Source: a virus
Virus record (IMG/VR): IMGVR_UViG_3300036766_000088
Location: 1-33,562 of that record
DNA: 33,562 nt
Reading direction: 5' to 3' (one strand)
Both the position numbers and the translations under genes were made by a program. Positions 17,162 through 32,093 of the stretch are shown here, piece after piece (positions within the stretch are counted from its first letter, which is position 1; every line of letters begins with the position of its first letter). The notes below the pieces were generated by a model. The model was not told where the DNA came from. It saw only the letters and a program-made list of their open reading frames with translations, and ran no database searches.

Positions 17162-17605
17162 ATGGAATTTCAAGGGTTAGAAGAAGTCATAACGGAAGAA
17201 AATAAGAAGGCTGAAATAACTTATCGTAAGAATCACTTTAAGATATTGGCAGACCTCTTTCGTGATGGAACCGCTGATATATCCAATGACCCAAAGTGGG
17301 TCGCTATGCTCAACAAACCAAGAGGGTTCGAATCTAACCCAAAACTTACTCTTGAACAATACATGAATCTATTTCCAGAAGACTGCCAAGACGCCATGCA
17401 AGCCGCAAAGTACAACAAAGATAGTTTGATGAATGATGGGATAAACCGAAAGTCCCTTGCTTTCTATAGTTTCTTGGGTTGTCCACCCGATTGTATCTCC
17501 AAACTATTTGGAGAGGTCTACCCAGAAGCAGGAGACCGTAAAAAGGCATGGTATAGATTCTTTAAAGAATTTCCTGCGTTTAAAGTAACACAGAGACCTT
17601 TATGA
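17162..17605 (+). CDS. Hypothetical protein after capsid, 147 aa
   Basis: TTGGGAGGCTT precedes the ATG. The protein is soluble and mixed alpha-helical, with LSFYSFLG-like aromatic patches and a basic C-terminus. It overlaps the following GNAT gene by 4 bp (ATGA). It could be a head-completion protein from its position, but no family is recognised. Confidence 0.5.
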   Translation: MEFQGLEEVITEENKKAEITYRKNHFKILADLFRDGTADISNDPKWVAMLNKPRGFESNPKLTLEQYMNLFPEDCQDAMQAAKYNKDSLMNDGINRKSLAFYSFLGCPPDCISKLFGEVYPEAGDRKKAWYRFFKEFPAFKVTQRPL

Positions 17606-18171
17606 AAGTTGACCTAGAACCCGTAGAAGTTCGACACCTTACCTGGCTCAAGAACCTTCGTAATGAACCAGAGGTAATGGATTTCTGTCGTCAACCCTAT
17701 CAACTCACCTCTCAAAATCAAGAAGATTGGTATAAATCAATCTCCAAGACTCGTGAGATGATTCCATTCATAGTCTCCGACCAAGACCTTGAAAGAGAGA
17801 AGCAATGGGTCGGATATGTCGCCCTCTCTCACGTTGACCCTATAGCAGACAAAGCGGAGTGTTCCTATGTCATTCATCCATCTCATAGAGGAAAAGGTTA
17901 CGGTATTGAGGCTATCTTTCAAATACTTTATTATGGATTCTTCATCTTGGGTCTACAAAAGATTTATTCGGATACTTTTGAGTATAACGGGGAAGAGGTA
18001 GAAATAAATAAGTCTTGCGGTTTTACGGTAGACGGATACCTACCTCGCCACTACTTCAAGAGAGGAAAATTCTTGGGTTCAATCCCAATGAGCATATTAA
18101 GAGAAAACTTTGAAGCAAAGTGGTCAGATAAACTCTCCAAGATTAAATATGCAGGGAGTAAACCTCTGTGA
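17602..18171 (+). CDS. GNAT-family N-acetyltransferase (PseH-like)
   Basis: The 189-residue protein shows the acetyl-CoA loop RGKGYG (residues 96-101) after a beta strand (ECSYVIHP), the hallmark of GNAT motif A, and a later KSCGF (137-141) that matches motif B. Members of this layout acetylate amino sugars (PseH and sugar N-acetyltransferases) or ribosomal proteins. Its setting, beside a glycosyltransferase and downstream sugar-nucleotide genes, favours a sugar substrate. It is ATGA-linked to the gene before and GTGA-linked to the glycosyltransferase after it. Confidence 0.7.
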   Translation: MKVDLEPVEVRHLTWLKNLRNEPEVMDFCRQPYQLTSQNQEDWYKSISKTREMIPFIVSDQDLEREKQWVGYVALSHVDPIADKAECSYVIHPSHRGKGYGIEAIFQILYYGFFILGLQKIYSDTFEYNGEEVEINKSCGFTVDGYLPRHYFKRGKFLGSIPMSILRENFEAKWSDKLSKIKYAGSKPL

Positions 18172-19235
18172 AAGCATACATCTCTGACTTCAACAATATT
18201 CTCTTAAATGTAAGAAGGCGTGTAGAAACTGTCTCTGACCCTCGTCAAGCTGACATTCTAATCCTTTGGCAAGATGTCCGAGGAGCTATGAAAACTCTAT
18301 GTGATATAAATAAGAACTATACCAACAAACCAGTAATCATAGTCCAACATGGACGAGGAGCGACAAGAGATTATCTGCCTCCAAATAGTTTTCCTCTATT
18401 AGCTGACAAGATATGTGTTTGGGGAGAAACAGAAGCTGAGAGAGTAAGACAAGCTGGCTACTCTAATGACCGCATAGCAATCACAGGTTCGCCGCTAACC
18501 TTCTACACTCGTAATCCAATAGCTCGCCAAGATTCTGCCAAGGGTAAGAGGATTATTACCTACACCCCAGTCATTACCTCGCACGAAGAAGTCTTCAACA
18601 TTGAAGTCGCCCTAGAACTTCGTAAGATTGAGTACACAATCGCCCAAGAAACTTTAAGAAAAAACTATGGTAGTCTCAAGAATATGTGGCACTCATGGTG
18701 TGTTGACCCAGAAGTAGCGACAGAAAACCAAATCCCATTTGAACTTCTCCATAAAGACTTCTACCCTATTCACAAGTTGACTGATATTCACGATGAGAAA
18801 CTCTATCACGGTGAGCACATTAAGACTACCGTAACTCATGCCAAGCACCTTGAAACCTCACATATTATCCTAAGCAACTCCGACTGTGTTCTCGGAATAG
18901 AAGAGGGAACCTTTCAGCTTATGGCAACTGCCATGGGTATCCCTACAGTCATAGTAGACGGATTTGAGTACGGCGACTACGGTGGAGTAAAAGATTATAA
19001 GGTAGAAAAGATTCACACAGAAGCCACAGCCTTCTGCCAACTACAAGATTTAAGACAAACCATAGAAGATGAACTAAATCATCCAGAAAAGCGCAAAGAC
19101 GCTCGGGAATCGGTCACAAGAAATGAGTTCGACCCCTACCCAGACAAAGACCCTATTGAACTCATCATTGACGAAGCGTGTAAACTTGTCAACGCCGACA
19201 TCAGAATCAAATCTCAACTAATGGAGGTAGCCTAA
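18168..19235 (+). CDS. GT-B-like glycosyltransferase or epimerase-like protein
   Basis: The protein (355 aa) has the Rossmann-type landmarks of the GT-B or UDP-GlcNAc 2-epimerase superfamily: PVIIVQHGRGATRDYLP and VWGETEAERVRQAG, then IAITGSP in the first half, and IEEGTFQLMATAMGIPTVIVDG in the second, where sugar-nucleotide binding occurs. CDP-glycerol transferases share this pattern. It starts with GTG in the stop of the GNAT gene. It ends in TAATG with the first decoration-like gene. The precise donor and acceptor are unknown. Confidence 0.6.
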   Translation: MKAYISDFNNILLNVRRRVETVSDPRQADILILWQDVRGAMKTLCDINKNYTNKPVIIVQHGRGATRDYLPPNSFPLLADKICVWGETEAERVRQAGYSNDRIAITGSPLTFYTRNPIARQDSAKGKRIITYTPVITSHEEVFNIEVALELRKIEYTIAQETLRKNYGSLKNMWHSWCVDPEVATENQIPFELLHKDFYPIHKLTDIHDEKLYHGEHIKTTVTHAKHLETSHIILSNSDCVLGIEEGTFQLMATAMGIPTVIVDGFEYGDYGGVKDYKVEKIHTEATAFCQLQDLRQTIEDELNHPEKRKDARESVTRNEFDPYPDKDPIELIIDEACKLVNADIRIKSQLMEVA

Positions 19236-19612
19236 TGGCTATTCTACAACTAGGAAACGAATCAGCTACTAATCTAGCTTACGTTTTCTCGAATAAGGCT
19301 TTAAAGATTAACCAGGCTTATAGCTGGTATCAACTGGCTTCAGCTTCTGCTACTGCAATCATAGCAGGTGGTCCTGGGATTCTTCACGCAGTAATTTTCA
19401 ACGATTCAGCAACCGCTACTACAATTATGTCACTCACAGACAGTGCAACTGTTGCTAATCAGATTGGTGATACGAGTGCTGGGTGCGTAGCCCAGTTTGG
19501 AACGATTGCCAAGAACCTCTTTCAATTCAACCTAGTTTTCAATAGTGGGTTATGTGTAAGGGTCTCTGGTTCAATCAATCCAACAACCATCATCTATTCA
19601 CTCGCATCTTAA
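19235..19612 (+). CDS. Decoration-like structural protein, paralogue 1
   Basis: The 125-residue protein is Ala/Ser/Thr-rich and beta-strand-like. It shares with the next gene NESA-type openings, SNKALK-like and GILHAVIF segments, DSATATT and the end IYSLAS. Such small proteins often decorate capsids or tail structures. It has no Cys pattern or enzyme motif. It is TAATG-linked to a glycosyltransferase-like gene, which suggests that it could be the sugar acceptor, but this is only inference. Confidence 0.55.
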   Translation: MAILQLGNESATNLAYVFSNKALKINQAYSWYQLASASATAIIAGGPGILHAVIFNDSATATTIMSLTDSATVANQIGDTSAGCVAQFGTIAKNLFQFNLVFNSGLCVRVSGSINPTTIIYSLAS

Positions 19613-19624
19613 AAGGAGAAACTA

Positions 19625-20005
19625 ATGTCTATTTTTCAGGTTTCAGACGAATCAGTAGGTAATATCGCAAGTGTCCTATCAAACAAAGGTCTAAAGGTAT
19701 CTCAAGCCTATAGCTATGTATTCTTAGCTTCAGGTGCGGCGACTGGGAATATCGCCCCAAGCCCTGGGATACTCCATGCTGTAATCTTCCAAGACTCAGC
19801 CACAGCTACAACCTATCTAGGGTTGTATGATATGTCTGATACGGCTTCTGCGCAGGTTTTGGGGAATTCTGCCTCCGCAATCGCCGTATTCGGCACTATC
19901 ACGAAGAATACATTTCCTATGAATGTAATCTTCAATAAGTTGAACTACAGAGTCAGTGGTTCAGCAATAGGGCCAACGACCATCGTTTATTCTTTGGCTT
20001 CATAA
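19625..20005 (+). CDS. Decoration-like structural protein, paralogue 2
   Basis: A tandem relative of the preceding gene (126 aa) with matching segments SNKGLKVSQAYS, GILHAVIFQDSATATT and YSLAS at the end. A shared ancestor by tandem duplication is the simplest explanation. AAAGGAGA lies 6-7 bases before its ATG. Its stop overlaps the next gene (TAATG), a methyltransferase. Confidence 0.55.
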   Translation: MSIFQVSDESVGNIASVLSNKGLKVSQAYSYVFLASGAATGNIAPSPGILHAVIFQDSATATTYLGLYDMSDTASAQVLGNSASAIAVFGTITKNTFPMNVIFNKLNYRVSGSAIGPTTIVYSLAS

Positions 20006-20478
20006 TGACCGTTGAGAACTTCTTTGGGGAATGGAGTATCGACCAAAAAGTCTTTGGGTGGATATTATCCAACCTTCAAAGAGATTCTCACATATTAGAA
20101 CTTGGTAGCGGGTACGCAACTGGAGAGCTTGCCCGCTACTATAATATGCACTCAATCGAACAAGACAAATCATTTATTGATAATCATAAGTCCCATTATA
20201 TTTATGCCCCAATAGTCAATGATTGGTATGACATTAAGATTCTACAAGAAGAACTTCCAAAGATTAAATATGACCTATTACTTATTGATGGGCCTAACAG
20301 TTGCAACAGGTTGAAATTTATGGATAACATTGGGCTGTTCAATATGTTCGCAAAGATAATCATAGACGATTGCCAAGAAACTCACATAAAAGATATGGCA
20401 GATAAGCTCTCTCACGATTTAAATAGGCCAGGAATAATACTATATGGCACTAAGAAAATGGCTATGGTGATAGCATGA
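20005..20478 (+). CDS. Class I SAM-dependent methyltransferase, paralogue 1
   Basis: The 157-residue protein carries ILELGSGYATGEL (motif I, residues 29-41), an acidic SIEQDK after the next strand, and LLIDGP (residues 91-96). It is a minimal Rossmann methyltransferase. Its neighbour has the same layout. Substrate likely a sugar or a surface molecule, given the setting, but a protein or nucleic acid cannot be excluded. Confidence 0.65.
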   Translation: MTVENFFGEWSIDQKVFGWILSNLQRDSHILELGSGYATGELARYYNMHSIEQDKSFIDNHKSHYIYAPIVNDWYDIKILQEELPKIKYDLLLIDGPNSCNRLKFMDNIGLFNMFAKIIIDDCQETHIKDMADKLSHDLNRPGIILYGTKKMAMVIA

Positions 20479-20969
20479 GTTTTGCGACAGGAGAAAATTA
20501 TCCCCCAATCGGTCAAGGACTCTTTAACGCCATGAGACTTGTATTACCTAAAGGTGGAACAGTCCTAGAACTCGGTTCTGGTGATGGAAGCACAACAGAA
20601 CTTAAAGGTGCTGGTTATACCGTCTACTCAATAGAACACAGCCCACATTATCTCCATAGATGGAACACTCCAGAGTTTACTATTCATGCCCCATTTGATG
20701 ATACAGGGTTTTATGACATGAACAAAGTTAGAGCTGGTATCCCCAAAAACTATGACATTCTTCTGATAGATGGTCCAGACACAGAGAATAGAGTCATTCG
20801 ATTCTATGAACACGCCATAGACTCTTTCAACCCAAAAGTCCACTGGTTCTTTGATGATTGGGGAAGTGAGATGTCAATAGGCATCAAAGCTGTGGCGAAG
20901 AAAACCGAGAGAGAACTCCTTGTTTTCGAGGACAAAATCAAACAATACGCAGTCTTACTCCCATGCTAA
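20475..20969 (+). CDS. Class I SAM-dependent methyltransferase, paralogue 2
   Basis: A second methyltransferase-like gene (164 aa) with VLELGSGDGSTTEL and DILLIDGPDTENR, in the same order as the preceding gene, so the pair probably arose by tandem duplication. It is ATGA-linked to it. C-terminal FFDDWGSEM may line the active site. Substrate unknown. Confidence 0.65.
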   Translation: MSFATGENYPPIGQGLFNAMRLVLPKGGTVLELGSGDGSTTELKGAGYTVYSIEHSPHYLHRWNTPEFTIHAPFDDTGFYDMNKVRAGIPKNYDILLIDGPDTENRVIRFYEHAIDSFNPKVHWFFDDWGSEMSIGIKAVAKKTERELLVFEDKIKQYAVLLPC

Positions 20970-22192
20970 AAGTCTATTTCGCAATCAACGAGTCAGGGGT
21001 CAACTACTGGCGTGGAAAGATACCAGCTTGGGAACTCAAAAGACGCAATCTCTGTGATGTCAAGATGTTCAATATCTATGATTACTCACAAGCTCAAGTT
21101 GAGCAAGAAATGGGGGAAGCTGATGTAATCTATATGCCTTGTGCCGCAGGTATGGAGGCTCTCTTAGAAATCACCGCTCATATTAGGAATAAGAAAGCCG
21201 TAGTGGTTGATTATGATGACAACCTATTTGATTGTCACCCTTACAACCCTGGTTATGCGACTCTAGGGCTTTATCCCGTCACAGTAAACAACTCAGATGG
21301 AACGGTAGTGGAACTTTGGAAAGACCAGAGACATGGTTTTTCTCTCCCAGATAACCGAAAACGCTACTATGCCCATATAGACATTCTCCACACAGCCAAT
21401 CAAGTCACCACAACCACAGAGAAACTCAAATCTGCCCTCTTGGAATATGTCGAGAGAGACACTAGATACTTCAACATAATCCCAAACTCCATAAACTTCG
21501 ACATCTATAAGCCATTTGAAAAACGTATTCATAGTAGAGATAAGATAAGGATTGGTTGGACAGCCTCGGACTCTCATATCGTTGAAGGCCGATACATCAT
21601 GCGAGTCCTTAATGAACTCAAGAAACGAAGAAGTGACTTCGAGTTTGTCATATTGGGAAATGTTGAGAAACTTCGCTGGGTTGAAAAAGAGAGTGGGTTT
21701 AATGTCGAGTGGCATGAGTTCACCGACATCAATGTTTATCCCTTAAAACTCGCCTCACTTGAATTTGACATTGGCATAGTCCCCCTAGAAAACCATTCAT
21801 TTAACCTTTGTAAGTCCGCCCTTAAATGGTCAGAGTATTCTGCCATGAAAATTCCATCAGTAGTCTCTAACCTCGCTCCTTATGACTGTGTAAATGACGG
21901 GATAGACGGGCTTAAGGCAAAGAGTGAAATTGATATGGCAGATAAGATTGAGGCTTTGATGAATGATTCTATCTTAAGAAACAAGATTGCTACCAATGCT
22001 TATGAAAGAAACCGTGCGGACTTCAATATAGAACACACTTGTCTTAAATGGCTTGATGTTTTCGAGAGAGCGCACCTATTGCCTCATCAGGTAATGTACA
22101 AAGGAGAACCTTTGAAAACTCTTGATAACAGAGAACTCATACTTAGCGGACAACCAATGAATGTCCATAGAGACTTAAATGGGAAACGATAA
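20963..22192 (+). CDS. GT4-like glycosyltransferase (GT-B)
   Basis: The 409-residue protein has an acidic DYDDNLFD near residue 95, the linker IRIGWTASDSH opening the second Rossmann domain (about residue 196), VILGNV, and the donor-site region LCKSALKWSEYSAMKIPSVVS (about 285-305), which parallels the E-x7-E-like site of GT4 enzymes. It transfers a nucleotide sugar to an acceptor, possibly on the virion. It overlaps the preceding methyltransferase by 7 bp and the next structural gene by 14 bp. Confidence 0.7.
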   Translation: MLKVYFAINESGVNYWRGKIPAWELKRRNLCDVKMFNIYDYSQAQVEQEMGEADVIYMPCAAGMEALLEITAHIRNKKAVVVDYDDNLFDCHPYNPGYATLGLYPVTVNNSDGTVVELWKDQRHGFSLPDNRKRYYAHIDILHTANQVTTTTEKLKSALLEYVERDTRYFNIIPNSINFDIYKPFEKRIHSRDKIRIGWTASDSHIVEGRYIMRVLNELKKRRSDFEFVILGNVEKLRWVEKESGFNVEWHEFTDINVYPLKLASLEFDIGIVPLENHSFNLCKSALKWSEYSAMKIPSVVSNLAPYDCVNDGIDGLKAKSEIDMADKIEALMNDSILRNKIATNAYERNRADFNIEHTCLKWLDVFERAHLLPHQVMYKGEPLKTLDNRELILSGQPMNVHRDLNGKR

Positions 22193-22496
22193 CAATAAAT
22201 TTCCAACAGCTTTGCTAGAATGTATTGAGTCAACCTCTAATGGTAATTATTTAAGAGTGGCTGGAGATACTTTTTGGCAACAAAGGCTAATCTATCATTC
22301 CGCAAGTGCAGGTGTTGATGGTCAAGTAGAATACATAGGGTTTGCTCGACCAGGCGTAGGCATATCAGCTTCAGGCTGGGCGATTAAACGCCTTACTTAT
22401 GACGCAAGTGGAAATGTAACCCAAATTACTTGGGCAGGTTCAAGCCTAGCAATTAACAAGATATTTGACGATAGAACGGAATATGTTTATGGGTAA
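22179..22496 (+). CDS. Conserved phage structural protein, 105 aa
   Basis: It reads WAIKRLTYDASGNVTQITWA in the middle and ends IFDDRTEYVYG. I recall this combination (WxIKR, then DDR near an aromatic end) from small phage proteins in structural regions, often near tail-fibre genes. It is beta-rich. It overlaps the glycosyltransferase and the long fibre gene. Its exact role is not known. Confidence 0.6.
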   Translation: MGNDNNKFPTALLECIESTSNGNYLRVAGDTFWQQRLIYHSASAGVDGQVEYIGFARPGVGISASGWAIKRLTYDASGNVTQITWAGSSLAINKIFDDRTEYVYG

Positions 22497-25236
22497 GAAA
22501 TTTAATCCATTACTCCCATTAGGGTTAGATATAGCAGGACTTACTTCAAGTAGTGGAGGAAGTTTATTCTTAAAACTCGACCAAACCACACCACAAACTA
22601 TCATAAACGGAACTCCAATATTTAATGCCGGACTTACTTCTAATGATAAAATCAAGTTGTCAGAAATATCAACCCCCGCTACACCATCGGCCAACACTAT
22701 ATTTATATATGCGAAGGATGACGGTTCAGGTACTTCTGCATTTTTTTTCATGGACGATTCGGGAATTGAAACACAAATCGGTAGTGGTGGCGGTGGCGGG
22801 GCAACCACCCTACCAGGCTTAACTGACGTAGACGACACCACTGTCAATACAACTTCCGGTCACGTTCTTCGTGCTACAGGGACCACTTGGATTAATGCAC
22901 AGTTAGCCCACTCAGACCTATCGGGTGTAGGGACTAATACCCACGCTCAAATAGATTCACACATCGGGACAGATATCACAGTCCACGCCTCTGCAACCAA
23001 CCTTATTCATACAACAGGCAACGAGACAATTTCAAGCGGTGTAAAAACTTTTACGGTTCTTCCACAGTCCTCAACCACCCCCTCGGTCGGAAACGATTTA
23101 ACAAATAAAACATATGTGGATTCAGTTGCTCTTGGATTGACAGTCAAGGCGGCCTGCCGTGTAGCAACGACTGCGGCCCAAGTGCTTGCCTCGGAATTTG
23201 AAAATGGTGATACGATTGATGGAGTGGTTCTTGCTACGGGTGATAGGATATTAATTAAAGACCAAGCAGACCAAACGACCAACGGGATCTATACTGTCAA
23301 CGCTTCTGGCGCTCCGACAAGGGCCACCGACTACGATTCATCAGCAGAAGTCGGAGCCGGTACTTTTACAAACATCACAGCAGGAACAGCAAATTCCAAT
23401 AAACAATTTGTTCAAATAACAGCCAATCCAACTTTGGGTGTCAGTAATCTCGTATTCACCCAATTATCTGCCCCACCAACTTACACAGCATCTTTGGGCG
23501 TTCAACTTGTCAGTCAGGATTTTAGGTCCAATCTTTCTGCTTCCGGTGCAATTACTTTGAGCGGTAATTCTATGCAAGTAGCTACTGATGGAAGTTCTAT
23601 TGAAATAACAGCGAACGCTCTAAATGTGAAGGCTCTTGGCGTGACAAATTCCATGCTTGCAGGATCCATAGCCGATTCAAAACTATCTCAGATAACCACA
23701 GCTTCTAAAGTTTCGGGTGCGGCAATCACATTATTAGCATCCCTGCCTTCTGGGGCTGGTTTAGTACCAACCGCTAATCTTGGCTCTGGGACTCCAGACG
23801 CAACGACATTTCTTAGGGGTGACCAGACCTACGCAGTTCCAGCAGGTTCGGGGGCTGGTATTTTCGCACTAACCTATTCCAAAAATCTCGACACTAGCGT
23901 TGCTACCGCTACCATTAGCAATAGTGCCGTTGAAACAACAATTTACAGCTATTCCGTTCCAGGCAATACTCTTAGCACGAACAAGATACTTAAAATAATT
24001 GTCTCAGGGACTTATTTGAATAATTCGGGTGCTAATAGAACTGTTACGGTTCGTCTTAAATACGGTGCTACGACAATTATTTCTGCGGTTACAGGTAACA
24101 TAGGAACCAGTGCCACCACTGGCGAGTTCTATTATGTTTTTTATTTAAACGCTGCCGGAGCGACAAATTCCCAAGAAGCTACATTTGAGGGCAGACATAC
24201 AAGTGGCGGTGGAACAGCACTAACCTTTGGAGATACGGGGACAGCCGCTATTGACAGTACCTCAGCACAAACACTTTTAGTATCTGCTCAGCTAAGTGCG
24301 GCAACTGCTACTCAAACATACACAAAGAAATTTGCAATAACACAACAGGAAAATGGCACAGACAATGTTGGTGCGCCAACCGACGCCTCTTACGTCTGCT
24401 TGGCGGCAAATGGGAATCTAACCAATGAGAGAGTTTTAACCGGAACAGCCAATCAAATTGTCATCACAGATAGTGGTGCTGGTGCGGCTGTTACCCTATC
24501 ATTACCACAGAGTATAGCCACAAGTTCTAACCCACAATTTGCCACTATAGAACTTGGAGCCGCTTCTGACACTACTATGGCTCGTCAAGCAGCTGCGGTG
24601 ATCAGCGTAGAAAACGAAGTCTTAAACGGATTCACTTCCACTGCCACTGCTGCTGGCACGACTACAATGACGATTGCATCTACGAAAATTCAGCAGTTTA
24701 CAGGCACTACTACTCAAACCGTAAAACTCCCGACAACAAGCATTGTTAAAGGGCAACAGTATATTATTCAGAATATTGGAACCTCAACAGCTTGTGTAGT
24801 AACGGTTCAGTCGTCAGGAGCGAATGAAATCCTTATCCTTGGTTATGGTTGTACAGCCATTCTGACATCTACCCAAGCCACGCCAACAACCGCCGCTCAT
24901 TGGACTTTTCAGAAAATTGGTAAAAATGGAATAACTGCTACAAATTATACTACCGATACAGGGACTTCTCTGAATTGTGATTATTATGATTATTTTGAAG
25001 TTACAGCCCAAGCAGGGGCGTTGTTATTTAATAATCCAACAGGAACTCCAAAGAATGGTCAAACTCTTTGGATTTCAGTAACAGGAACAGCAGCTAGGGC
25101 TTTAACTTATGGCACTCAATTTGAATCAAGCGCAGGAGCAGTTATGCCAACTACTACAGTAACAACGGCTATGATAGATATTGGATTCAAATGGAGATCT
25201 GATACTTCTAAATGGCATTGTGTGGCGCAAGCATGA
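22489..25236 (+). CDS. Long tail fibre/adhesin, 915 aa
   Basis: The ATG at 22489 is chosen because CGGA stands eight bases upstream. Other starts in the same frame (22483 or a TTG at 22465) are worse. Recognisable modules in order: an N-terminal LPLGLDIAGL region, a poly-Gly hinge (about 100-108), a fibre module with LTNKTYVDSVALGLTVKAACR and GDRILIKDQADQTTNG (about 205-265), an IADSKLSQI stem, a central beta-rich domain (about 460-600), and an end domain with FNNPTGTPKNGQTLW and ARALTYGTQFES like other fibre tips. It is Thr-, Ser- and Ala-rich with little charge. Likely a host-receptor-binding fibre. Confidence 0.75.
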   Translation: MGKKFNPLLPLGLDIAGLTSSSGGSLFLKLDQTTPQTIINGTPIFNAGLTSNDKIKLSEISTPATPSANTIFIYAKDDGSGTSAFFFMDDSGIETQIGSGGGGGATTLPGLTDVDDTTVNTTSGHVLRATGTTWINAQLAHSDLSGVGTNTHAQIDSHIGTDITVHASATNLIHTTGNETISSGVKTFTVLPQSSTTPSVGNDLTNKTYVDSVALGLTVKAACRVATTAAQVLASEFENGDTIDGVVLATGDRILIKDQADQTTNGIYTVNASGAPTRATDYDSSAEVGAGTFTNITAGTANSNKQFVQITANPTLGVSNLVFTQLSAPPTYTASLGVQLVSQDFRSNLSASGAITLSGNSMQVATDGSSIEITANALNVKALGVTNSMLAGSIADSKLSQITTASKVSGAAITLLASLPSGAGLVPTANLGSGTPDATTFLRGDQTYAVPAGSGAGIFALTYSKNLDTSVATATISNSAVETTIYSYSVPGNTLSTNKILKIIVSGTYLNNSGANRTVTVRLKYGATTIISAVTGNIGTSATTGEFYYVFYLNAAGATNSQEATFEGRHTSGGGTALTFGDTGTAAIDSTSAQTLLVSAQLSAATATQTYTKKFAITQQENGTDNVGAPTDASYVCLAANGNLTNERVLTGTANQIVITDSGAGAAVTLSLPQSIATSSNPQFATIELGAASDTTMARQAAAVISVENEVLNGFTSTATAAGTTTMTIASTKIQQFTGTTTQTVKLPTTSIVKGQQYIIQNIGTSTACVVTVQSSGANEILILGYGCTAILTSTQATPTTAAHWTFQKIGKNGITATNYTTDTGTSLNCDYYDYFEVTAQAGALLFNNPTGTPKNGQTLWISVTGTAARALTYGTQFESSAGAVMPTTTVTTAMIDIGFKWRSDTSKWHCVAQA

Positions 25237-26333
25237 TTTACATTAGATTAAAAGATTTAGTAAAACCCAGAAAACCAACAGATGAAACTGGTTCTGATGA
25301 TAATATTATATCAGACTATGGTTTTATTTACCGAATTCCAGTTGCAAATGGTATGAAAGTCCTTGATGTGGGGTGCGGAACAGGGAGAGACTTAAGGTGC
25401 ATACTCAGAAACTACCCAAATTGTGAATGTGTGGGAATTGACCAATTTAATTTAATACCGCCCGATGAACGACCCGAAATTAAACTTGTTCAAAGTGATG
25501 TTACAAAACTTCCGTTTGAAGATAATTATTTTGATGTAGTTTACGCTAACTCTGTCTTTGATGAAATGACGGACGAGCAAGTAAACGCTGTCTTATCGGA
25601 AATGAAGCGTGTCGGAAAGGACGTGTGGTATACAGAATTGAATGACGACTTTAAAACCTTTGATACCAAGCACCCGAATTTCCACAAAGAGAAGTTTGCT
25701 ATCATCGGTAGTCCTCGCACTGGCACAACTCTGCTTCTGAGGCTTCTTAACAAACAGAACGATATATTTTGTGGCAACGAACAACAGAGTCACGATTACG
25801 CCAATCATCCCGAAATGATCTATACGCTCAAACCAATCGTGGGATTGAAACTTCCGTTTGGTAGTGAATGGCTACTCCAAAATGATTTCTGGAAAGATAG
25901 TCAAATAATATTTACTCACAGAGATCCTGTGGATACTGTTGCTTCTTACGATCTAATGATTATGGGAAACGAACAGAATATGCTCGATAAAATCATTGAC
26001 ACGATAAAGAACTCTACTTCGGACAGTGATTTCTCAAAGACTATGAGTAAGGACTTGGAACTCTTACCAACTTATTCAGACTATCGGGTAGCTTGCGGAG
26101 CTATTTATTACAAATGGCTTATGGGCAGGGAGTCACTTTTCCCAAATCGGCTTGATGTTGTGTATGAAGATTTTGTCACTAACCCCAAGCAGACTATTCA
26201 AAATATTTGTGATTTTCTGGGGGCTAAAATGAATGACTTTGACTCAACTCAAGTTTTCACTAGCTCAATAGGCAAGGGTTACAAACAGTATTCACCCGAA
26301 CAAGTGCAACTGATAAAGGATATTTGTGGCTAG
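25233..26333 (+). CDS. Methyltransferase-sulfotransferase fusion
   Basis: The ATG overlaps the fibre stop (ATGA). Residues 40-140 form a class I methyltransferase: KVLDVGCGTGRDL (motif I), VGIDQF, then QSDVTKLPFED, DVVYANSVFDEM. Residues 154-366 form a PAPS-dependent sulfotransferase: FAIIGSPRTGTTLLLRLL is the 5-prime phosphosulfate loop (about 156-166), IIFTHRDPVDTVAS the 3-prime phosphate site (R230, S238), and VVYEDFVTNP with FLGA follows as in that family. Both halves look intact. The enzyme may methylate and sulfate one glycan. Sulfotransferases are rare in phages. The two domains are joined without a clear linker (about 150). Confidence 0.75.
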   Translation: MIYIRLKDLVKPRKPTDETGSDDNIISDYGFIYRIPVANGMKVLDVGCGTGRDLRCILRNYPNCECVGIDQFNLIPPDERPEIKLVQSDVTKLPFEDNYFDVVYANSVFDEMTDEQVNAVLSEMKRVGKDVWYTELNDDFKTFDTKHPNFHKEKFAIIGSPRTGTTLLLRLLNKQNDIFCGNEQQSHDYANHPEMIYTLKPIVGLKLPFGSEWLLQNDFWKDSQIIFTHRDPVDTVASYDLMIMGNEQNMLDKIIDTIKNSTSDSDFSKTMSKDLELLPTYSDYRVACGAIYYKWLMGRESLFPNRLDVVYEDFVTNPKQTIQNICDFLGAKMNDFDSTQVFTSSIGKGYKQYSPEQVQLIKDICG

Positions 26334-27273
26334 TCAAGGACCATTATATGCGGGAACGGTAGCAGATGACGCTACCATCGGAACGACACCGTGGAGCAAT
26401 CCTACAAACGCTCAAGGCGCAGCTGATGGCGTATTCGCCACAGCTTCTTTTCTAAGCAACGTGGTTACTGATATAAGAGATAATAGTATAAAGATTGTTC
26501 AGGGAGGGACTATTGGGGGGACAGACCAATCAGCGGGAGCTTTGTGGTCTCTTACTTTAGCCTATGTTTCTTTTGGAAGTAGCTCAAACTTGTGGGGTTT
26601 GACTTGGCAACCAGCAGATATTAATTTGAGTACATTTGGAGTTGCTATGGCTTGTCAGTTTACTAAAGGTGTTCCAAGAATTACGCATTATCTAAAAGCA
26701 ACAAACTTTGGATTTACCATTCCAGCTGGAGCCACTATTAATGGAATTTTAGTAGAACAAGATAGAAAATATGACTCGGTGTCATTTGTTGCAGGAACAC
26801 TTATCAGCGCACCTTACGGAGAGATTCCTATTGAGGAATTAGAGAATGGCATGGAAGTCTATGCGTGGGATAAAAATGGCAGAAAGAAAGTTGTTAAAAT
26901 ATTAGCTCTGCGGAAAGGATTCAAGAAGACAGTCATCCTCTCAACGAAATCAAGCCAAGTGGAAGCTACTATCGATCACCCATTTTGGACTAGAAAAAGA
27001 GGATGGCAAAAAGCCGAGAAACTCACTGTTTGGGATGAGGTTTCAGTTTATGGAAAGTGGGAAAGATTACAAAAAATAGAACTGACTGGAAAGATAAAGG
27101 ATGTTTACAATTTGTCTCTGGAATCTCCACACACTTACATGGCTAATGGTTTTGGAGTTCATAATCTTATTACAAGCTCACCGACAACATGGAAGGCTTA
27201 TGTTGATGCAATACGAATTACAGTAACATACACACCATCTCCAACCACAGGTAATTTTTTTAGACTATTTTAA
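26326..27273 (+). CDS. Tail protein with inserted Hint (intein-like) domain
   Basis: The GTG start has AAAGGA six bases upstream. Residues 1-152 and 281-315 resemble a phage tail domain (LYAGTVADDATIG, IKIVQGGTIGG, LWGLTWQPADIN, TNFGFTIPAGATI, YVDAIRITVTYT). Residues 153-280 are a Hint domain: SFVAGTLIS and GEIPIEEL (block A), VEATIDHPFW with T-x-x-H (block B), DVYNLSLESPHTYMANG (block F) and GVHN (block G). Position 1 is Ser-153 rather than Cys, and the residue after the terminal Asn-280 is Leu, as in bacterial intein-like domains. There is no room for a homing endonuclease. Self-cleavage or splicing is possible but not certain. Confidence 0.75.
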   Translation: MASQGPLYAGTVADDATIGTTPWSNPTNAQGAADGVFATASFLSNVVTDIRDNSIKIVQGGTIGGTDQSAGALWSLTLAYVSFGSSSNLWGLTWQPADINLSTFGVAMACQFTKGVPRITHYLKATNFGFTIPAGATINGILVEQDRKYDSVSFVAGTLISAPYGEIPIEELENGMEVYAWDKNGRKKVVKILALRKGFKKTVILSTKSSQVEATIDHPFWTRKRGWQKAEKLTVWDEVSVYGKWERLQKIELTGKIKDVYNLSLESPHTYMANGFGVHNLITSSPTTWKAYVDAIRITVTYTPSPTTGNFFRLF

Positions 27274-27292: not shown

Positions 27293-27499
27293 ATGGATAA
27301 CAATGAAGTGTATAAAAATAGAGACTTAATGCTTGGTGATATACACAGCACAGTTAAAAAACTAGATGCTTGGTGTGATAAACATGAGGAGAAGGATAAT
27401 AAAAGATTTTTGTTTACCTGGGTAGTGATAGTAATAGTTGCCGCTTGTGCAGGAGTAATTCCCCAACTAGCGGCTTTTGCTTTAGAACACTTTAAATAA
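27293..27499 (+). CDS. Single-pass membrane protein, XhlA-like
   Basis: A charged coiled N-terminal half (DIHSTVKKLDAWCDKHEEK) is followed by a transmembrane segment (about 42-62). The overall form, 68 residues, is like XhlA-type holin partners. AAGGA precedes the ATG. It lies just before the holin-like gene. Confidence 0.55.
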   Translation: MDNNEVYKNRDLMLGDIHSTVKKLDAWCDKHEEKDNKRFLFTWVVIVIVAACAGVIPQLAAFALEHFK

Positions 27500-27514
27500 C
27501 AAGGGAGGTAAATC

Positions 27515-27697
27515 ATGTTAAACGGAAAGAAGACGTACATTTTGGTTGGGTTGGCACTGTTGGGTGCTTTCGCAACCTATTCTGCAGGTGTAGTAAACAA
27601 CGGTTTTGACCTTGGTGAGTTCTGGAAGTTTATTCAGAGCGGAGCTGTGGTTGGTGCATTAGCTACACTTAGGTTGGCTATAGGAAAAAAAGCCTAG
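27515..27697 (+). CDS. Holin-like membrane protein, 60 aa
   Basis: A strong AGGGAGGTAA site precedes the ATG. The protein has two hydrophobic segments (about 8-26 and 40-55) flanked by Lys, as in small holins, and ends RLAIGKKA. Such holins open the cytoplasmic membrane at the end of infection. The last codons before the stop are GGA AAA AAA GCC TAG and include the slippery heptamer A-AAA-AAA, so a -1 product with a 91-residue extension may also be made. Confidence 0.6.
   Translation: MLNGKKTYILVGLALLGAFATYSAGVVNNGFDLGEFWKFIQSGAVVGALATLRLAIGKKA
27685..27691 (+). promoter_or_regulatory. Candidate -1 frameshift site (A-AAA-AAA)
   Basis: The heptamer is in the correct register for a -1 slip (zero frame GGA AAA AAA). 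After the slip the next codons are AGC CTA GAC and the frame stays open to 27966. A hairpin of about 5 bp (CTTCT/AGAAG around 27707-27723) lies about 16 bases downstream, further than is usual. Experimental proof is lacking. Confidence 0.45.
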
Positions 27698-27966: not shown

Positions 27967-28005
27967 TTGGTTAGACCCAGCGTGGTCTATTTGGGAAGGA
28001 TGGTA

Positions 28006-28296
28006 ATGGAATCAGATTGGGTCAAATTATGCCCTTATTTAGAGGTGATACCGCCTCACCCCCTTTATTCTGAAAAAGATAATGAAATAAAGGAAATTGT
28101 TGAGATAAGAGACTTCTTTACCGAGAGAAACAAAGAGGATTACATGATTCCATTTTTAGACTACTTTCTAAAACTCCCTATGATTCCAAGCGAGAATCAG
28201 TCTAAGATACAACAAGTTTTAAAGTCTATTCGCCTTATGAAAGTAGCGAATAAAGTACAGAAATCTTTAGAGGAAATGGGGGTACAAAGTGCCTGA
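28006..28296 (+). CDS. Small late protein, paralogue A
   Basis: The ATG at 28006 is chosen because GGAAGG stands about six bases upstream. A longer frame from TTG 27967 is less likely. It begins MESDWVKLCPYLEVIPPHP, closely matching the start of another gene 900 bp downstream (SGWVKLCPYLEV, PPHP). The rest is charged and helical (YMIPFLDYFLKLPMIP). The pair flanks a structural gene. Function unknown. Confidence 0.55.
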   Translation: MESDWVKLCPYLEVIPPHPLYSEKDNEIKEIVEIRDFFTERNKEDYMIPFLDYFLKLPMIPSENQSKIQQVLKSIRLMKVANKVQKSLEEMGVQSA

Positions 28297-28888
28297 AAAA
28301 AGATTTGGTGGTGAGTGGACTAAAGGAGACTCTGGGGTTCCTATTCTTGGTATACAAACATCTGCTTCGGCTGCTGCTGCAAGCAACGGACAATACACAC
28401 CTTTACAAATTGATGAATTGGGGCAGTTAAGAGTAGCTGCGCAAGTTTCTATTGGGGCAAACTCATCAGTTAATATCAGTCAAGTTGGTGGAAGTACGAC
28501 TGTAACGGCTTCTGCGGGAATACAGCGTACACAGTCTATAGTTAGTTATGACATTAAGAATATCTATTCTTCTGGTGCGGCTAAAGTTCCTACTTTCTTA
28601 CAAATCTCAGCCTCGGCAAGTGGGAGTAATGTCTTGATAGCTTCCGCAGCTTCTACAACCTATGTAATATTGGGCTATAACTTAATGTCAAATGGTGCTG
28701 TAAACGCCCAACTTTTATCAAGTGCTACGCCTATGGGTGGGATAGTTTATATGCCAACCGCAGGTGTAGGTAAAGTTTGTCCATTCAGCCCAGTAGGTTG
28801 GATGATGACTACGGCAGGACATTCACTTAACCTTAATCTTTCCGCTAACATACCAGTTGGCGGTGAGATTGTTTATATAGCAATTTAG
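28289..28888 (+). CDS. Structural protein, fibre or decoration-like, 199 aa
   Basis: The protein starts with GTG (GGGGGTACAAA upstream). It has YTPLQIDELGQLRV and a beta-rich C-terminal domain with TTYVILGYNLMSNGAVNAQLL and GHSLNLNLSANIPVGG. The composition (Ser, Ala, Gly, Val) is that of virion proteins. It resembles short modules from phage tail and capsid decoration proteins. No enzymatic motif. Confidence 0.6.
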   Translation: MPEKRFGGEWTKGDSGVPILGIQTSASAAAASNGQYTPLQIDELGQLRVAAQVSIGANSSVNISQVGGSTTVTASAGIQRTQSIVSYDIKNIYSSGAAKVPTFLQISASASGSNVLIASAASTTYVILGYNLMSNGAVNAQLLSSATPMGGIVYMPTAGVGKVCPFSPVGWMMTTAGHSLNLNLSANIPVGGEIVYIAI

Positions 28889-28896: not shown

Positions 28897-28950
28897 ATGA
28901 CCAGATGGGATGTGGATGATGAAAGAGATACTGCCAGACAACTCATTTAA
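28897..28950 (+). other. Possible 17-codon leader ORF
   Basis: An ATG at 28897 is preceded by AGGAG at five bases, the only good initiation site here, but encodes only MTRWDVDDERDTARQLI before a stop. It overlaps, out of frame, the beginning of the next gene. It may be a translational leader or evidence of a frameshift. Confidence 0.3.
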
Positions 28951-29269
28951 CAATGTAGCAGTAGAGTCTGGATGGGTAAAACTATGCCCTTACCTTGAAG
29001 TCAGACCTCCACATCCTATGGCAGCAAGTCAAGACATGAATGCCAAAGATGTCATGGAGATATTTGACTTTTACAAGGGAGAAAACTCAGAGAAACCTTT
29101 TGAGTCTTTTATGGAACACTTTAAACGTATGCCAGTTATTCCGAGGGCAGGAGAGACCAAACTTTCAAGTTTCTTACGCATGATAAGACTACTTAAGATA
29201 GCAAGAAAATCTGGAATGACACCTTACAAAACAACTAGATTTCTTCACAAAGCAGGGATTGAGACATGA
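28910..29269 (+). CDS. Small late protein, paralogue B
   Basis: The protein contains the block SGWVKLCPYLEVRPPHP shared with the gene at 28006-28296, then a helical domain with FMEHFKRMPVIPRAG and a basic C-terminus (KTTRFLHKAG). Possible starts are at 28910, 28916 and 28919, none with a good ribosome-binding site. The strong site upstream belongs to a short overlapping ORF. Its stop overlaps the next gene by 4 bp. Function unknown. Confidence 0.5.
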   Translation: MWMMKEILPDNSFNNVAVESGWVKLCPYLEVRPPHPMAASQDMNAKDVMEIFDFYKGENSEKPFESFMEHFKRMPVIPRAGETKLSSFLRMIRLLKIARKSGMTPYKTTRFLHKAGIET

Positions 29270-29895
29270 AACCGCTTATAGGTTGTATCATTCAAGCTAG
29301 ACTTGGCTCGACTCGGCTTCCAAGAAAACATTTACTCCAGATAGCTGGGAAACCTCTCTTAGAACACTTAGTCAATAGAGTCCATTCTTCTAAACTAATT
29401 GATAAGGTTGTCTTGGCTTGCCCAGAGAACCCAGAATGTTGTCTCAATGAAGAAATCTTTATAGGGAGTGAAAATGATGTCCTTGACCGTTATTATCAGG
29501 TGGCTAAGAAGTATAACTTTGATGTTATTGTACGTATTACTGCTGATTGCCCTCTTATTCCTGTTTACGAGATTGATAGATGTATTCAGGCTTATCTCGA
29601 ATATCATACACACTACTTAACCAATATCCAAACAAGTGGAAGATTTGGATTGCCTGACGGGTGGGACTGCGAAGTTTTCTCATTCCAAGCCCTAGAAATC
29701 GCATGGGAGAACTCAGAAGAAAGAGAACACGTTACAACTTATATGAAATCTAATCTAGGTTTTCACCCAGTATTCCTAGACCCAATAAAGTTATCCGTAG
29801 ACACTCTTGAAGATTATGAAAGAGTAAAAGAGTTTTACCTGTCAGAATGTTCCCAATACCAACTACCTACAACCGAGGGAAGCTATGCTCAATGA
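29266..29895 (+). CDS. SpsF-like nucleotide-sugar cytidylyltransferase
   Basis: The N-terminal motif QARLGSTRLPRKHLL (residues 10-24) and the segment GKPLLEHLVNRV are signature elements of the SpsF/PseF/KdsB-type cytidylyltransferases, which activate an acidic or deoxy sugar with CTP. VRITADCPLIP (about 89-99) is the metal-binding region. The length (209 aa) is near the SpsF type. It precedes a PseB-like gene, as in pathways for pseudaminic-acid-type sugars. Exact substrate unknown. The gene is ATGA-linked to its upstream neighbour. Confidence 0.7.
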   Translation: MKPLIGCIIQARLGSTRLPRKHLLQIAGKPLLEHLVNRVHSSKLIDKVVLACPENPECCLNEEIFIGSENDVLDRYYQVAKKYNFDVIVRITADCPLIPVYEIDRCIQAYLEYHTHYLTNIQTSGRFGLPDGWDCEVFSFQALEIAWENSEEREHVTTYMKSNLGFHPVFLDPIKLSVDTLEDYERVKEFYLSECSQYQLPTTEGSYAQ

Positions 29896-30895
29896 CAAAA
29901 CTATACTAATCACCGGAGGAACTGGGAGTTTCGCCACTCACTTTATCCAGTATCTTCTTACCCAATGCACTCCAAAAGCTATCCGTATTTTTAGTAGAGA
30001 CGAGCATAAGCAGACACAATTCTTGGGGCAATATGGTGGAGTTAAAGGTGAATCAGATATTCCTGTGAGAGGCTTCATCGGAGACATTAGAGACCTAGAC
30101 CGCCTTCGTATGGCTATGGAAGGTGTAGACATCGTTATCCATGCAGCCGCCCTAAAGCAAGTCCAATCCTGTGAGTATAATCCAATCGAAACTGTTAAAA
30201 CCAACATCTACGGAAGCCAAAACGTAGTCCAAGCCGCCCTAGATTGTAATGTAGATAAAGTCTTAGCTATCTCAACGGATAAGGCAGTCAACCCGCTCAA
30301 CTTGTACGGTTCGACCAAAATGGTCATGGAAAGGTTGGTGATAAATGCTAATGCTTATAGAGGGAAAACTAAAAGAACTAAATTCTCCTGTACTCGGTAC
30401 GGTAATGTCGCTGATTCAAGAGGAACGGTCGTACACATCTGGAGGGAGCAGATTAGCAAAGGTAAGCAAGTTTCAGTCACGAGTTGGGAGGCTACGAGAT
30501 TCTGGATTACAATGCGAGAAGCGAATCAGTTTGTTCTTGAGGCTATTCAACTGATGGATGAATTGGATGGAGGAGAAATCTTTTGTCCTCGTATGCCGTC
30601 AGTTAATATCCAGACAATTTACTCTGCTTTGGTTCCGAAAGATTACCCTACAAATACAATAGGAGAACGTATAGGAGATAAACTCCATGAGGATTTAATA
30701 AGGAAAGAGGAGCTTCCTTTCACTACTCTCTATAAAGGCCATTATGTTATTATGCCTCAAGAACCCTCTTGGCCTTATAGGAAACCTCTTATTATTTCAC
30801 CAAACGTCAACCCAAGCGAATCACTAAACAGTGGAAACAATGACAGATACCTTGATGCAGAAACAGTCGGACAAACTCTCAAAGCGAGCGTTTAA
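29885..30895 (+). CDS. pseB: UDP-GlcNAc 4,6-dehydratase, PseB-like
   Basis: The protein (336 aa) is a short-chain dehydrogenase with Rossmann motif GGTGSFA (residues 11-17), GDIRD (66-70) and HAAALKQV (86-93). The catalytic region is STDKAVNPLNLYGSTKMVMERL in form, with T131, D132, K133, Y141 and K145. All match the PseB/FlaA1-type UDP-GlcNAc 4,6-dehydratases, first step in modified-sugar pathways such as pseudaminic acid. GAGGGAAG precedes the ATG. It is followed by a class III aminotransferase, overlapping by about 55 bp. Confidence 0.8.
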   Translation: MLNDKTILITGGTGSFATHFIQYLLTQCTPKAIRIFSRDEHKQTQFLGQYGGVKGESDIPVRGFIGDIRDLDRLRMAMEGVDIVIHAAALKQVQSCEYNPIETVKTNIYGSQNVVQAALDCNVDKVLAISTDKAVNPLNLYGSTKMVMERLVINANAYRGKTKRTKFSCTRYGNVADSRGTVVHIWREQISKGKQVSVTSWEATRFWITMREANQFVLEAIQLMDELDGGEIFCPRMPSVNIQTIYSALVPKDYPTNTIGERIGDKLHEDLIRKEELPFTTLYKGHYVIMPQEPSWPYRKPLIISPNVNPSESLNSGNNDRYLDAETVGQTLKASV

Positions 30896-32093
30896 GAGTA
30901 TAGTTAGTCAGACGCAGACTTACTCCAAACAATCTTGCCGCTATGTAGAAGGGGTCTACCCTCAATACGCCACCTTCGGCTCTGGGGCTTTGCTTTATGA
31001 TACGAATGGGAACTCATTTGTTGACTATGTTTGTGCGTTAGGCACGAATATTCTAGGCTACGCCAATCCTAAAGTAAACGAGGCCGTTATAAACCAGATT
31101 AAACAAGGGACTCTTTACTCTCTTCCTCATCCTAGCGAAATCCATCTAGCCGAGAAGATTAAGTCTATGATACCTTCAATCGAATTACTCCGCTTCTTAA
31201 AGTCTGGGAGCGAGGCTGTCTCGGCAGGAGTTAAGATTGCGAGAGCTTATACAGGGCGAGATATAGTCCTATCAAACGGTTATCACGGTTGGCATGATTG
31301 GTCTACTCCTATTACAGAACAATCTCTAGGAACTCCAAATTCTTTTGAGTCAACCATCATTAAGTTTAATTACAACGATATTCAAGACCTTGAGCAACTC
31401 TTAGCTCATAACAAAGTAGCCTGTGTCGTCCTCGACCCCTACATCTTTGACAAGCCTGATGACCTATACCTAAGTAATTTAATCAAGATTAGTCATAAGC
31501 ATGGGGCACTTGTCTTATTTGATGAAGTAGTAACTGGAATACGATGGGATAAGTATTCAGTCCAGAACTCTTATGGAGTTAAACCCGACCTCACGGCTCT
31601 CGGTAAGTCTCTCGCTAACGGCTTTGCAATCTCATGTATTGGTGGGAAAAAGAAGATTATGAAAATGTTGGATAGTGGTTGTTTTGTATCCTCGACTTAT
31701 GGTGGAGACTTGGTGGGAATCTCTGCGGCGATTGCTTGTCTTGATATAGTTACTTCTGAGAATGTCCCACAGCAATTAGCCGAGTCAGGTTCTATGCTTC
31801 TCGAAGGACTAAAAGAAATAGGGATACAATCTAGCGGGACTCCGTTCAGGCAGAGACTAGACTTTAAGACCCTAGAACACAAAGCTCTCTTTTGGCAGGA
31901 ATGTGTCAAGCGTGGAGTATTCTTTGGCGGTGCTCAACACACATCATTCGCTCACTCAGAAGTCTTAATTAATAAGACAATCGACATAGCCAAAGAAGCT
32001 ATGGATGTATGTAAACTTTATGATGATAACCCTAAACTTGCTTTAGAGGGAAAGATGCCTAAACCAGTATCCACTATTCAAAACTTGAGGTAA
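30840..32093 (+). CDS. Class III (HemL-like) PLP aminotransferase
   Basis: Length 417 residues from the ATG at 30840; a GTG at 30831 in the same frame is possible. Motifs are those of glutamate-1-semialdehyde aminomutase-like enzymes: FLKSGSEAVSAGVKIAR, GYHGWHDW, LFDEVVTGIR with D228, and LGKSLANGFAI with K256 as the PLP lysine. The gene lies between a PseB-like dehydratase and a virion protein, so an amino-sugar role is likely, although the usual PseC enzyme belongs to a different PLP fold group (DegT). Confidence 0.7.
   Translation: MTDTLMQKQSDKLSKRAFKSIVSQTQTYSKQSCRYVEGVYPQYATFGSGALLYDTNGNSFVDYVCALGTNILGYANPKVNEAVINQIKQGTLYSLPHPSEIHLAEKIKSMIPSIELLRFLKSGSEAVSAGVKIARAYTGRDIVLSNGYHGWHDWSTPITEQSLGTPNSFESTIIKFNYNDIQDLEQLLAHNKVACVVLDPYIFDKPDDLYLSNLIKISHKHGALVLFDEVVTGIRWDKYSVQNSYGVKPDLTALGKSLANGFAISCIGGKKKIMKMLDSGCFVSSTYGGDLVGISAAIACLDIVTSENVPQQLAESGSMLLEGLKEIGIQSSGTPFRQRLDFKTLEHKALFWQECVKRGVFFGGAQHTSFAHSEVLINKTIDIAKEAMDVCKLYDDNPKLALEGKMPKPVSTIQNLR

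Follow-up and report, generated by a model that had tools for sequence, protein, structure and literature searches.

The sugar-synthesis genes found amid the capsid genes of a podophage group suggest that members of this little-known group cover their virions in an acidic, sialic-acid-like sugar. The window, that is, the whole 33,562-nucleotide stretch of DNA analysed (positions 1 to 33,562 of IMG/VR record IMGVR_UViG_3300036766_000088, an incomplete linear contig), is a fragment of an SU10-type podophage in which nine enzyme genes are interleaved with virion-type genes in the interval bounded by the major capsid protein (MCP) gene and the SU10 adaptor gene. We lean towards reading the capsid–adaptor cassette of the window's group as a late-operon glycan cassette, a trimmed nonulosonate module whose sugar would be attached to a virion protein.

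Results

The SU10-family portal (SU10_portal, 12375..14558; Pfam PF23899, 1.3e-28), MCP (SU10_MCP, 16196..17104; PF17236, 2.8e-69; phrog_1328, 1.4e-60) and adaptor (32096..33016; PF24175, 2e-12) genes occur in that order in the window and, like all genes described here, lie on the plus strand. The MCP and adaptor genes form the left and right borders of a slot and bracket the enzyme island, a feature absent from the initial annotation, which had correctly placed the island itself at 17602-32093, from the start of the GNAT gene to the end of the aminotransferase gene. A 147-aa gene (17162..17605) stands beside the MCP gene also in the viral contigs L143 (22% identity, 4.8e-7, to 3120-3557) and L225 (phmmer, 4e-05).

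The nine enzymes initially named were borne out above the Pfam cut-offs for the GNAT acetyltransferase (17602..18171; PF13302, 1.6e-16), the GT4-like GT-B glycosyltransferase (20963..22192; PF13692, 1.1e-8), the methyltransferase–sulfotransferase fusion (25233..26333, longest ORF from 25212; PF13649, 1.5e-15; PF13469, 5.8e-20), the SpsF-like cytidylyltransferase (29266..29895; PF02348, CTP_transf_3, 4.2e-26), the PseB-like NDP-sugar 4,6-dehydratase (29885..30895; PF02719, Polysacc_synt_2, 1.6e-82) and the class III aminotransferase (30855..32093, longest ORF from GTG 30831; PF00202, 1.8e-45). Both single methyltransferases are weaker: methyltransferase-like protein 1 (20005..20478) has 33% identity to its neighbour at 20475 and no Pfam match, and methyltransferase 2 (20475..20969) matches PF13578 at 3.8e-05, just under the cut-off. 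The PseB-like protein scored 352 bits against TIGR03589, below the 408-bit equivalog cut-off, and the GNAT was rejected as a PseH equivalog, its TIGR03585 score being far under the cut-off (35 versus 93 bits). The catalytic motifs of the island enzymes are intact, and the PLP-lysine motif of the aminotransferase, GKSLANG, aligns with those of its bacterial partners.

The remaining enzyme, g355 (18168..19235; 355 aa), belongs to an undescribed family that is kept in six other viral contigs and had zero matches in the sequence-family scans. Since its AlphaFold2 model (pLDDT 83.6) has a GT-B fold, the claim of two GT-B proteins stands. The model matched a UDP-GlcNAc 2-epimerase (Z 20.3) and TagF (Z 18.9), and structure comparison placed the fold near UDP-GlcNAc 2-epimerases including NeuC (Z 17-20). 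As modelled, g355 resembles 2-epimerases as much as transferases, and it could be a stand-in for a PseG/SpsG-type hydrolase or a hydrolysing 2-epimerase.

Among the virion-type genes, dec1 (19235..19612) is predicted to encode a small beta-sandwich protein (AlphaFold2 pLDDT 74) whose position matches the dec family of L143; the best structural matches of this model, which is of modest confidence, were small uncharacterised phage proteins. Its paralogue dec2 (19625..20005) shares 60% identity with it, the family shows weak likeness across contigs (21-28% identity), and dec1 is a candidate glycan acceptor. A 105-aa ORF (22179..22496) overlaps both its neighbours and precedes a long fibre/head-decoration-type gene (22489..25236, longest ORF from TTG 22465; phrog_30390, 6.5e-31; phrog_2647, head decoration, 4.4e-25). 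Further along lie genes for 109-aa (27967..28296) and 119-aa (28910..29269) paralogues (42% identity, E 2e-28) and a 199-aa ORF (28289..28888; S+T 20%; no family match), virion-type by sequence pattern only. The virion-type protein at 26326..27273, initially described as a fibre, carries an inserted Hint/intein-like domain that had gone unrecorded (PF14890, PF07591 and PF13403 slightly under cut-off; TIGR01443 over cut-off).

The eight junctions between enzyme and virion-type genes comprise overlaps of -4, -1, -1, -14, -4, -8 and -4 nt and one spacing of +2 nt, so that all overlap or abut, as the initial annotation had held of the links between the two kinds of gene. The GC content and codon usage of the enzyme genes match those of the virion genes (r = 0.955), which speaks against a chimeric origin: the island is no foreign insert of that kind. 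Terminator-like sites in the island showed no clear excess (20 seen versus 14.8 +/- 3.6 expected from shuffling). Phage glycosyltransferases often target DNA (PMC12619734), and the enzymes might hypermodify phage DNA with a sugar; this is scarcely credible here, however, because the genes accompany virion rather than replication genes, the scanned window proteins yielded no recognisable base hydroxymethylase, and no DNA-related role is known for sulfotransferase, Maf-type or nonulosonate genes.

Single-sequence scans of viral contigs with the window MCP, PseB and g355 gave no match, and alignment queries were needed. With these, the gene order that the initial annotation had proposed to seek in related phages was found in independent relatives: the SpsF, PseB and class III aminotransferase genes precede the adaptor gene in five diverged viral contigs (L143, L222, L224, L225 and partial L226; SpsF in L222 and L225 detected by tblastn), four of which also harbour g355, the glycosyltransferase and a gene for a small beta-sandwich protein in this slot. 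Between the window and L143, the island enzymes keep their order at 39-63% protein identity, from 39% for the GNAT to 63% over 299 residues for the PseB-like protein, and the window SpsF is 34-47% identical to those of L143 and of bacterial nonulosonate loci. The window MCP shares 41-43% identity with those of L143 and L224, and in the MCP tree the window, L143, L224 and L225 form one clade with support of 100/100. A single origin of all glycosyltransferase-bearing phages, indicated by a first MCP tree, was dropped as a larger tree puts them in at least three places; by this phylogeny a single origin is kept for the island clade only. PseB and aminotransferase matches in 'Staphylococcus' and 'Listeria' phage records were left unused, as they look like bacterial DNA in unannotated records.

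The glycosyltransferase at 20963..22192 is the slot member with the widest conservation, having homologues between the MCP and adaptor genes in many contigs, and in simpler relatives it stands there alone. In 33 of the 35 loci with both genes, the glycosyltransferase gene runs up to or into the adaptor start; an SU10-type MCP gene occurs in 48 of 79 glycosyltransferase loci, and never on the opposite strand. In relatives without this glycosyltransferase, including the complete genomes MW202743 and MW202801, the slot holds other glycosyltransferase, methyltransferase and radical-SAM genes, three of the glycosyltransferases having a GT2-TPR-GT-B architecture. This variation in gene content among relatives is what would be expected if the slot were a hotspot for neutral cargo (morons) that collects host genes with no virion-linked role. 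We regard that as very unlikely, however, given that the content is always of glycan type, the order is kept despite the divergence of the enzymes, and the catalytic motifs and stop/start overlaps are preserved.

Two steps of the nonulosonic-acid pathway are present in the window, namely, the NDP-HexNAc 4,6-dehydratase step (PseB/SpsM type, though under the equivalog cut-off) and the CMP-sugar synthetase step (SpsF type). The window's only aminotransferase is of class III, with no DegT/PseC-type C4 aminotransferase found there; judging from its family, it may substitute for the PseC-type enzyme. No sequence-family match to a PseG/SpsG hydrolase was obtained in the window, and an HMM of three island NeuBs matched nothing in the six frames of this incomplete record (NeuB/PseI/SpsE). 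NeuB is present in three relatives, L143 (9.3e-61), L224 and L225, and is, along with PIG-L deacetylase and formyltransferase genes, an extra in some relatives; neither of the latter two nor a Gfo/Idh gene occurs in the window. A complete sugar pathway in the window therefore did not hold up, with PseC, PseG and NeuB homologues all missing, whereas two other supports of the initial reading of co-regulation and virion glycosylation, late-gene linkage and an order kept in relatives, did.

These absences make the window's own sugar uncertain; the gene content indicates that it is probably a nonulosonic acid in the relatives and, less surely, in the window. In a variant of our explanation, the window enzymes would make a UDP- or CMP-activated amino-deoxy sugar instead, which the two GT-B enzymes would attach to virion proteins. 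The lack of NeuB in the window against its presence in three relatives fits this variant, and a dehydratase, an aminotransferase and an acetyltransferase suffice for an acetamido-dideoxyhexose. We nevertheless think it rather unlikely, as SpsF, whose family of CMP-sugar synthetases is associated with nonulosonate loci, is retained intact beside the trio, and NeuB may be encoded by the host or lie in the rest of the phage genome, of which about 9 kb is probably missing from the record to judge by the 42.6-kb relative MW202743.

Bacterial genes for SpsF and this class III aminotransferase are neighbours or are fused, within PseB-PseC-AKR-SpsF-AT-PseG-PseI operons, and the operons pairing them are nonulosonic-acid (Pse/Leg) loci, one of which (L132) also has PIG-L and formyltransferase genes as in the phages. 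The island is therefore best taken to be a nonulosonate module that was captured, trimmed and put to use in virion decoration. In a phage lineage unrelated to this one (L229 and L231), a GNAT-NeuB(short)-PseB-AKR-SpsF-AT-MptE/Maf domain arrangement lies between the terminase and portal genes; the MptE/Maf domain, PF01973, scores 4.9e-33 in L231 and has no Pfam match in the window glycosyltransferases.

Discussion

From the genes, their coupling, their conserved order and their kinship to nonulosonate operons, we infer late expression, the identity of the sugar, its acceptor and its function, and we propose the following scenario. The late (virion) operon would carry a glycan cassette between its capsid and adaptor genes, built around a soluble GT-B glycosyltransferase that is co-translated with the adaptor. 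Among the phages of the window's clade, this core may have been expanded into a trimmed pseudaminic/legionaminic-like module comprising the PseB-like dehydratase, the class III aminotransferase, the GNAT, the SpsF-type CMP-sugar synthetase and usually NeuB, together with decorating methyl-, formyl-, sulfo- and deacetylase enzymes. The module would make or supplement a CMP-activated acidic sugar inside the infected cell, and the glycosyltransferase and g355 would transfer it in the cytoplasm onto a surface-exposed virion protein, the candidates being dec1/dec2, encoded beside g355, and then the Ser/Thr-rich fibre. Because the window is without NeuB, the condensing step there may come from the host or the remaining phage genome, or the final sugar may be simpler. 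More tentatively, it is conceivable that this podophage group and, convergently, at least one other lineage make their own nonulosonic sugar by means of a captured, trimmed bacterial operon in the virion block, and that phage-specific GT-B transferases of the cytoplasm, g355 among them, then coat the capsid with this sugar.

Alternatively, the island's target late in infection could be the surface of the host, whose LPS, capsule or flagellin sugars it would alter, for instance to block superinfection or to release progeny from debris-borne receptors. Bacterial flagella and polysaccharides do carry Pse/Leg sugars, phages are known to encode acetyltransferases that act on nonulosonic acids of the host capsule (PMC6586298), and surveys of auxiliary metabolic genes (AMGs) class such gene sets as LPS islands. 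However, the genes, that of the glycosyltransferase among them, lie within the virion operon, many contigs show translational coupling of the glycosyltransferase to the adaptor gene, and flippase, polymerase, ligase and membrane-bound glycosyltransferase genes are all absent from the window and the L143 islands. Furthermore, neither an integrase nor a lysogeny gene was recognised in the window proteins scanned, so that lasting serotype conversion is not indicated. The homologous bacterial loci being of the kind used in flagellin glycosylation and membrane glycan genes being absent, virion modification is favoured and the host-surface role appears improbable, although a transferase that is soluble and expressed late could also have a host glycan precursor as its substrate.

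In mycobacteriophages, capsid and tail tube proteins are glycosylated, an activity linked to glycosyltransferases that the phages encode (Freeman et al., 2023; PMC10527164). The window's group likewise has glycosyltransferases of its own; the mycobacteriophages are of a different phage class and, in the accounts consulted, have no nonulosonate synthesis genes described, whereas the group's glycosyltransferase gene is flanked by those for the MCP and the adaptor and shows coupling to the adaptor. In a proposed Rhodococcus case, a methyltransferase was also linked to virion glycosylation. With the flagellin Pse/Leg loci of bacteria (Caulobacter FlmG system, PMC7591256; Shewanella, PMC3765264), the phages share the PseB-type dehydratase and the cytidylyltransferase, as well as NeuB in the relatives, the Maf/MptE domain in the L229/L231 lineage and, presumably, transfer by a soluble cytoplasmic enzyme to a surface protein that self-assembles; the phage versions differ in having a class III aminotransferase and no PseC or PseG homologues, and under the model their acceptor would have to be a virion protein. 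The Bacillus subtilis Sps legionaminic-acid pathway, whose glycan is on a protein shell, the spore crust, shares the SpsF-type cytidylyltransferase and an SDR dehydratase with the window, but is complete, with six enzymes (SpsM, C, D, G, E and F; PMC7439481), whereas the window has only part of the path. SU10-type podophages share the capsid, portal and adaptor families and their order, whereas L003, L004 and L006, the relatives used for reference, gave no strong match to the glycosyltransferase and have a slot annotated with fewer or only fibre-type genes.

Phage-encoded virion glycosylation itself is already known, but we found no prior report of phage nonulosonate synthesis beside virion genes in the open-access literature searched, where the capsid–adaptor nonulosonate cassette appears undescribed. 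In a global-ocean AMG catalogue (PMC11360552), glycosyltransferase, nucleotidyl transferase and nucleotide-sugar epimerase genes mark contigs as 'lipopolysaccharide islands' to be dropped, and such systems may therefore be filtered out of viromics. A glycosyltransferase gene between the MCP and adaptor genes, plus SpsF-PseB-aminotransferase, provides a searchable genomic signature. If the proposed scenario is true, these would be bacterial viruses with a self-made sialic-acid-like coat, tailed phages making for their own particle an acidic nine-carbon sugar whose chemistry is known from flagella, spores and animal cell surfaces, with a bearing on adsorption, particle charge and recognition by the host or by animal immunity.

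RESULTS

The 33,562-base window corresponds to one whole linear IMG/VR record, and part of the genome is therefore probably missing. Its virion block is that of an SU10-type podophage, with terminase, SU10_portal (12375), scaffold-like, SU10_MCP (major capsid protein, MCP; 16196) and SU10_adaptor (32096) genes. Among named phages, its portal is closest to that of MW202743 (30% identity), a podophage from Manatee Spring whose complete genome measures 42.6 kb. The nine enzymes listed by the initial annotation for the island (17602-32093) were all recovered by family matches, a structure model and neighbour comparison, and the linkage of enzyme and virion genes that it described holds, junctions overlapping by 1 to 14 nt or leaving a 2-nt gap before the adaptor gene. 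The 355-aa protein encoded at 18168 (g355) matched no family; its AlphaFold2 model from a seven-sequence alignment has a GT-B fold (pLDDT 83.6), with UDP-GlcNAc 2-epimerases (Z 20.3) and the teichoic-acid polymerase TagF (Z 18.9) as its nearest structural matches. Codon usage in enzyme and virion-type genes of the window is correlated at 0.955, indicating that the island enzymes are settled residents.

The related contig L143 carries, in order, genes for MCP, a 147-aa protein, NeuB, a methyltransferase, DUF4910, GNAT, a formyltransferase, PIG-L, a methyltransferase, g355, a small beta-rich protein, the GT-B glycosyltransferase (GT; window 20963-22192), Gfo/Idh, SpsF, PseB, class III aminotransferase and adaptor. 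Enzymes common to L143 and the window are 39-63% identical and keep their order. The arrangement recurs in L222, L224, L225 and the partial L226 with local differences, the aminotransferase of L224 lying upstream of SpsF and PseB. The MCPs of the window, L143, L224 and L225 form one clade (support 100/100). A six-frame search of the window found no NeuB, PIG-L, formyltransferase, DUF4910 or Gfo/Idh; either NeuB is supplied by the host or the unsequenced part of the genome, or the sugar is simpler. The window also encodes additional methyltransferases, and a methyltransferase-sulfotransferase fusion, without counterpart in L143, which suggests that its final decoration differs.

Scanning with an alignment of the window GT recovered 79 loci whose GT gene was usable. 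They were selected by GT similarity and include near-duplicates, so that the following counts describe position and not prevalence: an SU10-type MCP gene is present in 48 of the 79, never on the opposite strand; GT lies ≤2 kb from MCP in 29 of 32 loci with MCP and enough upstream sequence; and of 35 loci with a downstream adaptor, 33 have a GT stop codon that overlaps the adaptor start or directly adjoins it. The relatives nearest the window carry GT homologues: in L009, L010 and L019 GT has MCP and adaptor as its immediate neighbours, and in L011, whose contig ends inside GT, it immediately follows MCP. Outside the GT-bearing group, most of the 79 MCP relatives, many of them short fragments, lacked a strong GT match, as did reference phages L003-L006. 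GT-bearing phages occupy at least three places in the MCP tree; GT was therefore either ancestral with later losses, or acquired repeatedly at one position.

Other glycan genes fill the same interval elsewhere. A large GT2-TPR-GT-B fusion directly follows the capsid gene in L007 (10084-12456), L028 (10854-13223) and MW202743 (7108-9393), accompanied by further GT, methyltransferase or radical-SAM genes; TPR repeats are similarly joined to a GT-B domain in the flagellin glycosyltransferase FlmG (PMC7591256). The complete genome MW202801 has two GTs, PhyH, methyltransferase and NodB there (product names as deposited).

Three further features lie inside the island. The virion-type protein at 26326-27273 contains a Hint/intein-like insert (TIGR01443 above cut-off, TIGR01445 just below) that starts SFVAGTLI and ends VHN followed by Leu; since the +1 residue is not Cys, Ser or Thr, the insert looks bacterial-intein-like and may cleave rather than splice. 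Two small holin-like proteins at 27293-27697, midway along the island, with a hydrophobic stretch assigned by eye in the first and by computed hydropathy in the second, mark a possible lysis gene position. The paralogues at 27967-28296 (109 aa) and 28910-29269 (119 aa), 42% identical and flanking a Ser/Thr-rich 199-aa protein, point to a local duplication.

DISCUSSION

Across 398 genomes of one bacterial phylum, the best SpsF matches often adjoin, or are fused with, an aminotransferase of the same class as that of the phages; fusion of SpsF and class III aminotransferase into single proteins of ~680-790 aa, seen in bacterial genomes L112, L113, L114 and L118, supports a shared metabolic step. 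Extended bacterial regions run PseB, DegT-type PseC, aldo/keto reductase, SpsF, aminotransferase, PseG and PseI (PseC, PseG and PseI assigned by sequence pattern, PseI also by HMM), and the L132 operon additionally encodes the PIG-L and formyltransferase most similar to those of the phages. Bacterial operons pairing SpsF and aminotransferase are nonulosonic-acid loci. The CMP-legionaminic acid route of B. subtilis needs SpsF (PMC7439481), and in Vibrio one nonulosonate cluster may use an SpsF domain instead of NeuA (PMC7371886). PseC and PseG homologues are absent from the island phages, in which the aminotransferase and g355 could replace them.

In L229 and L231, which together with L233 represent an unrelated lineage and have a PF04466 terminase and P22-type portal, GNAT, a short NeuB-like protein, PseB, aldo/keto reductase, SpsF, aminotransferase and an MptE-like protein (PF01973) are encoded between terminase and portal. 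The PF01973 domain also occurs in Maf flagellin transferases. The same chemistry in two virion blocks argues for virion-linked use. In a third viral contig, L252, PseB, SpsF, aminotransferase and GNAT (4992-9607) lie just upstream of terminase and portal.

The proposal that the virion is glycosylated is partly supported. The glycan cassette lies within the capsid-adaptor interval, in relatives as in the window; the main rival, that the island alters the host surface, still stands but is weakened because the island has no membrane glycan genes and GT is coupled to the adaptor gene. DNA modification by the island enzymes and a neutral cargo region both fit the gene content poorly. In flagellar systems, soluble transferases link such sugars to protein in the cytoplasm (PMC7591256; PMC3765264). 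The first candidate acceptor, argued from position, is the pair dec1 (19235-19612) and dec2 (19625-20005), which adjoins g355 where L143, L222, L224 and L225 have the small beta-rich gene. In its structure model, dec1 forms a beta-sandwich (pLDDT 74) that resembles small uncharacterised phage proteins, and dec1, fibre and MCP are Ser/Thr-rich (S+T 20-26%).

Virion glycosylation by phage GTs is known from mycobacteriophages, as reported by Freeman et al. (2023); within the literature searched, the capsid-adaptor arrangement and the sugar class look new. Our results partly support the capsid-adaptor interval as a built-in glycan cassette, which in the window's clade would hold a trimmed nonulosonate module.
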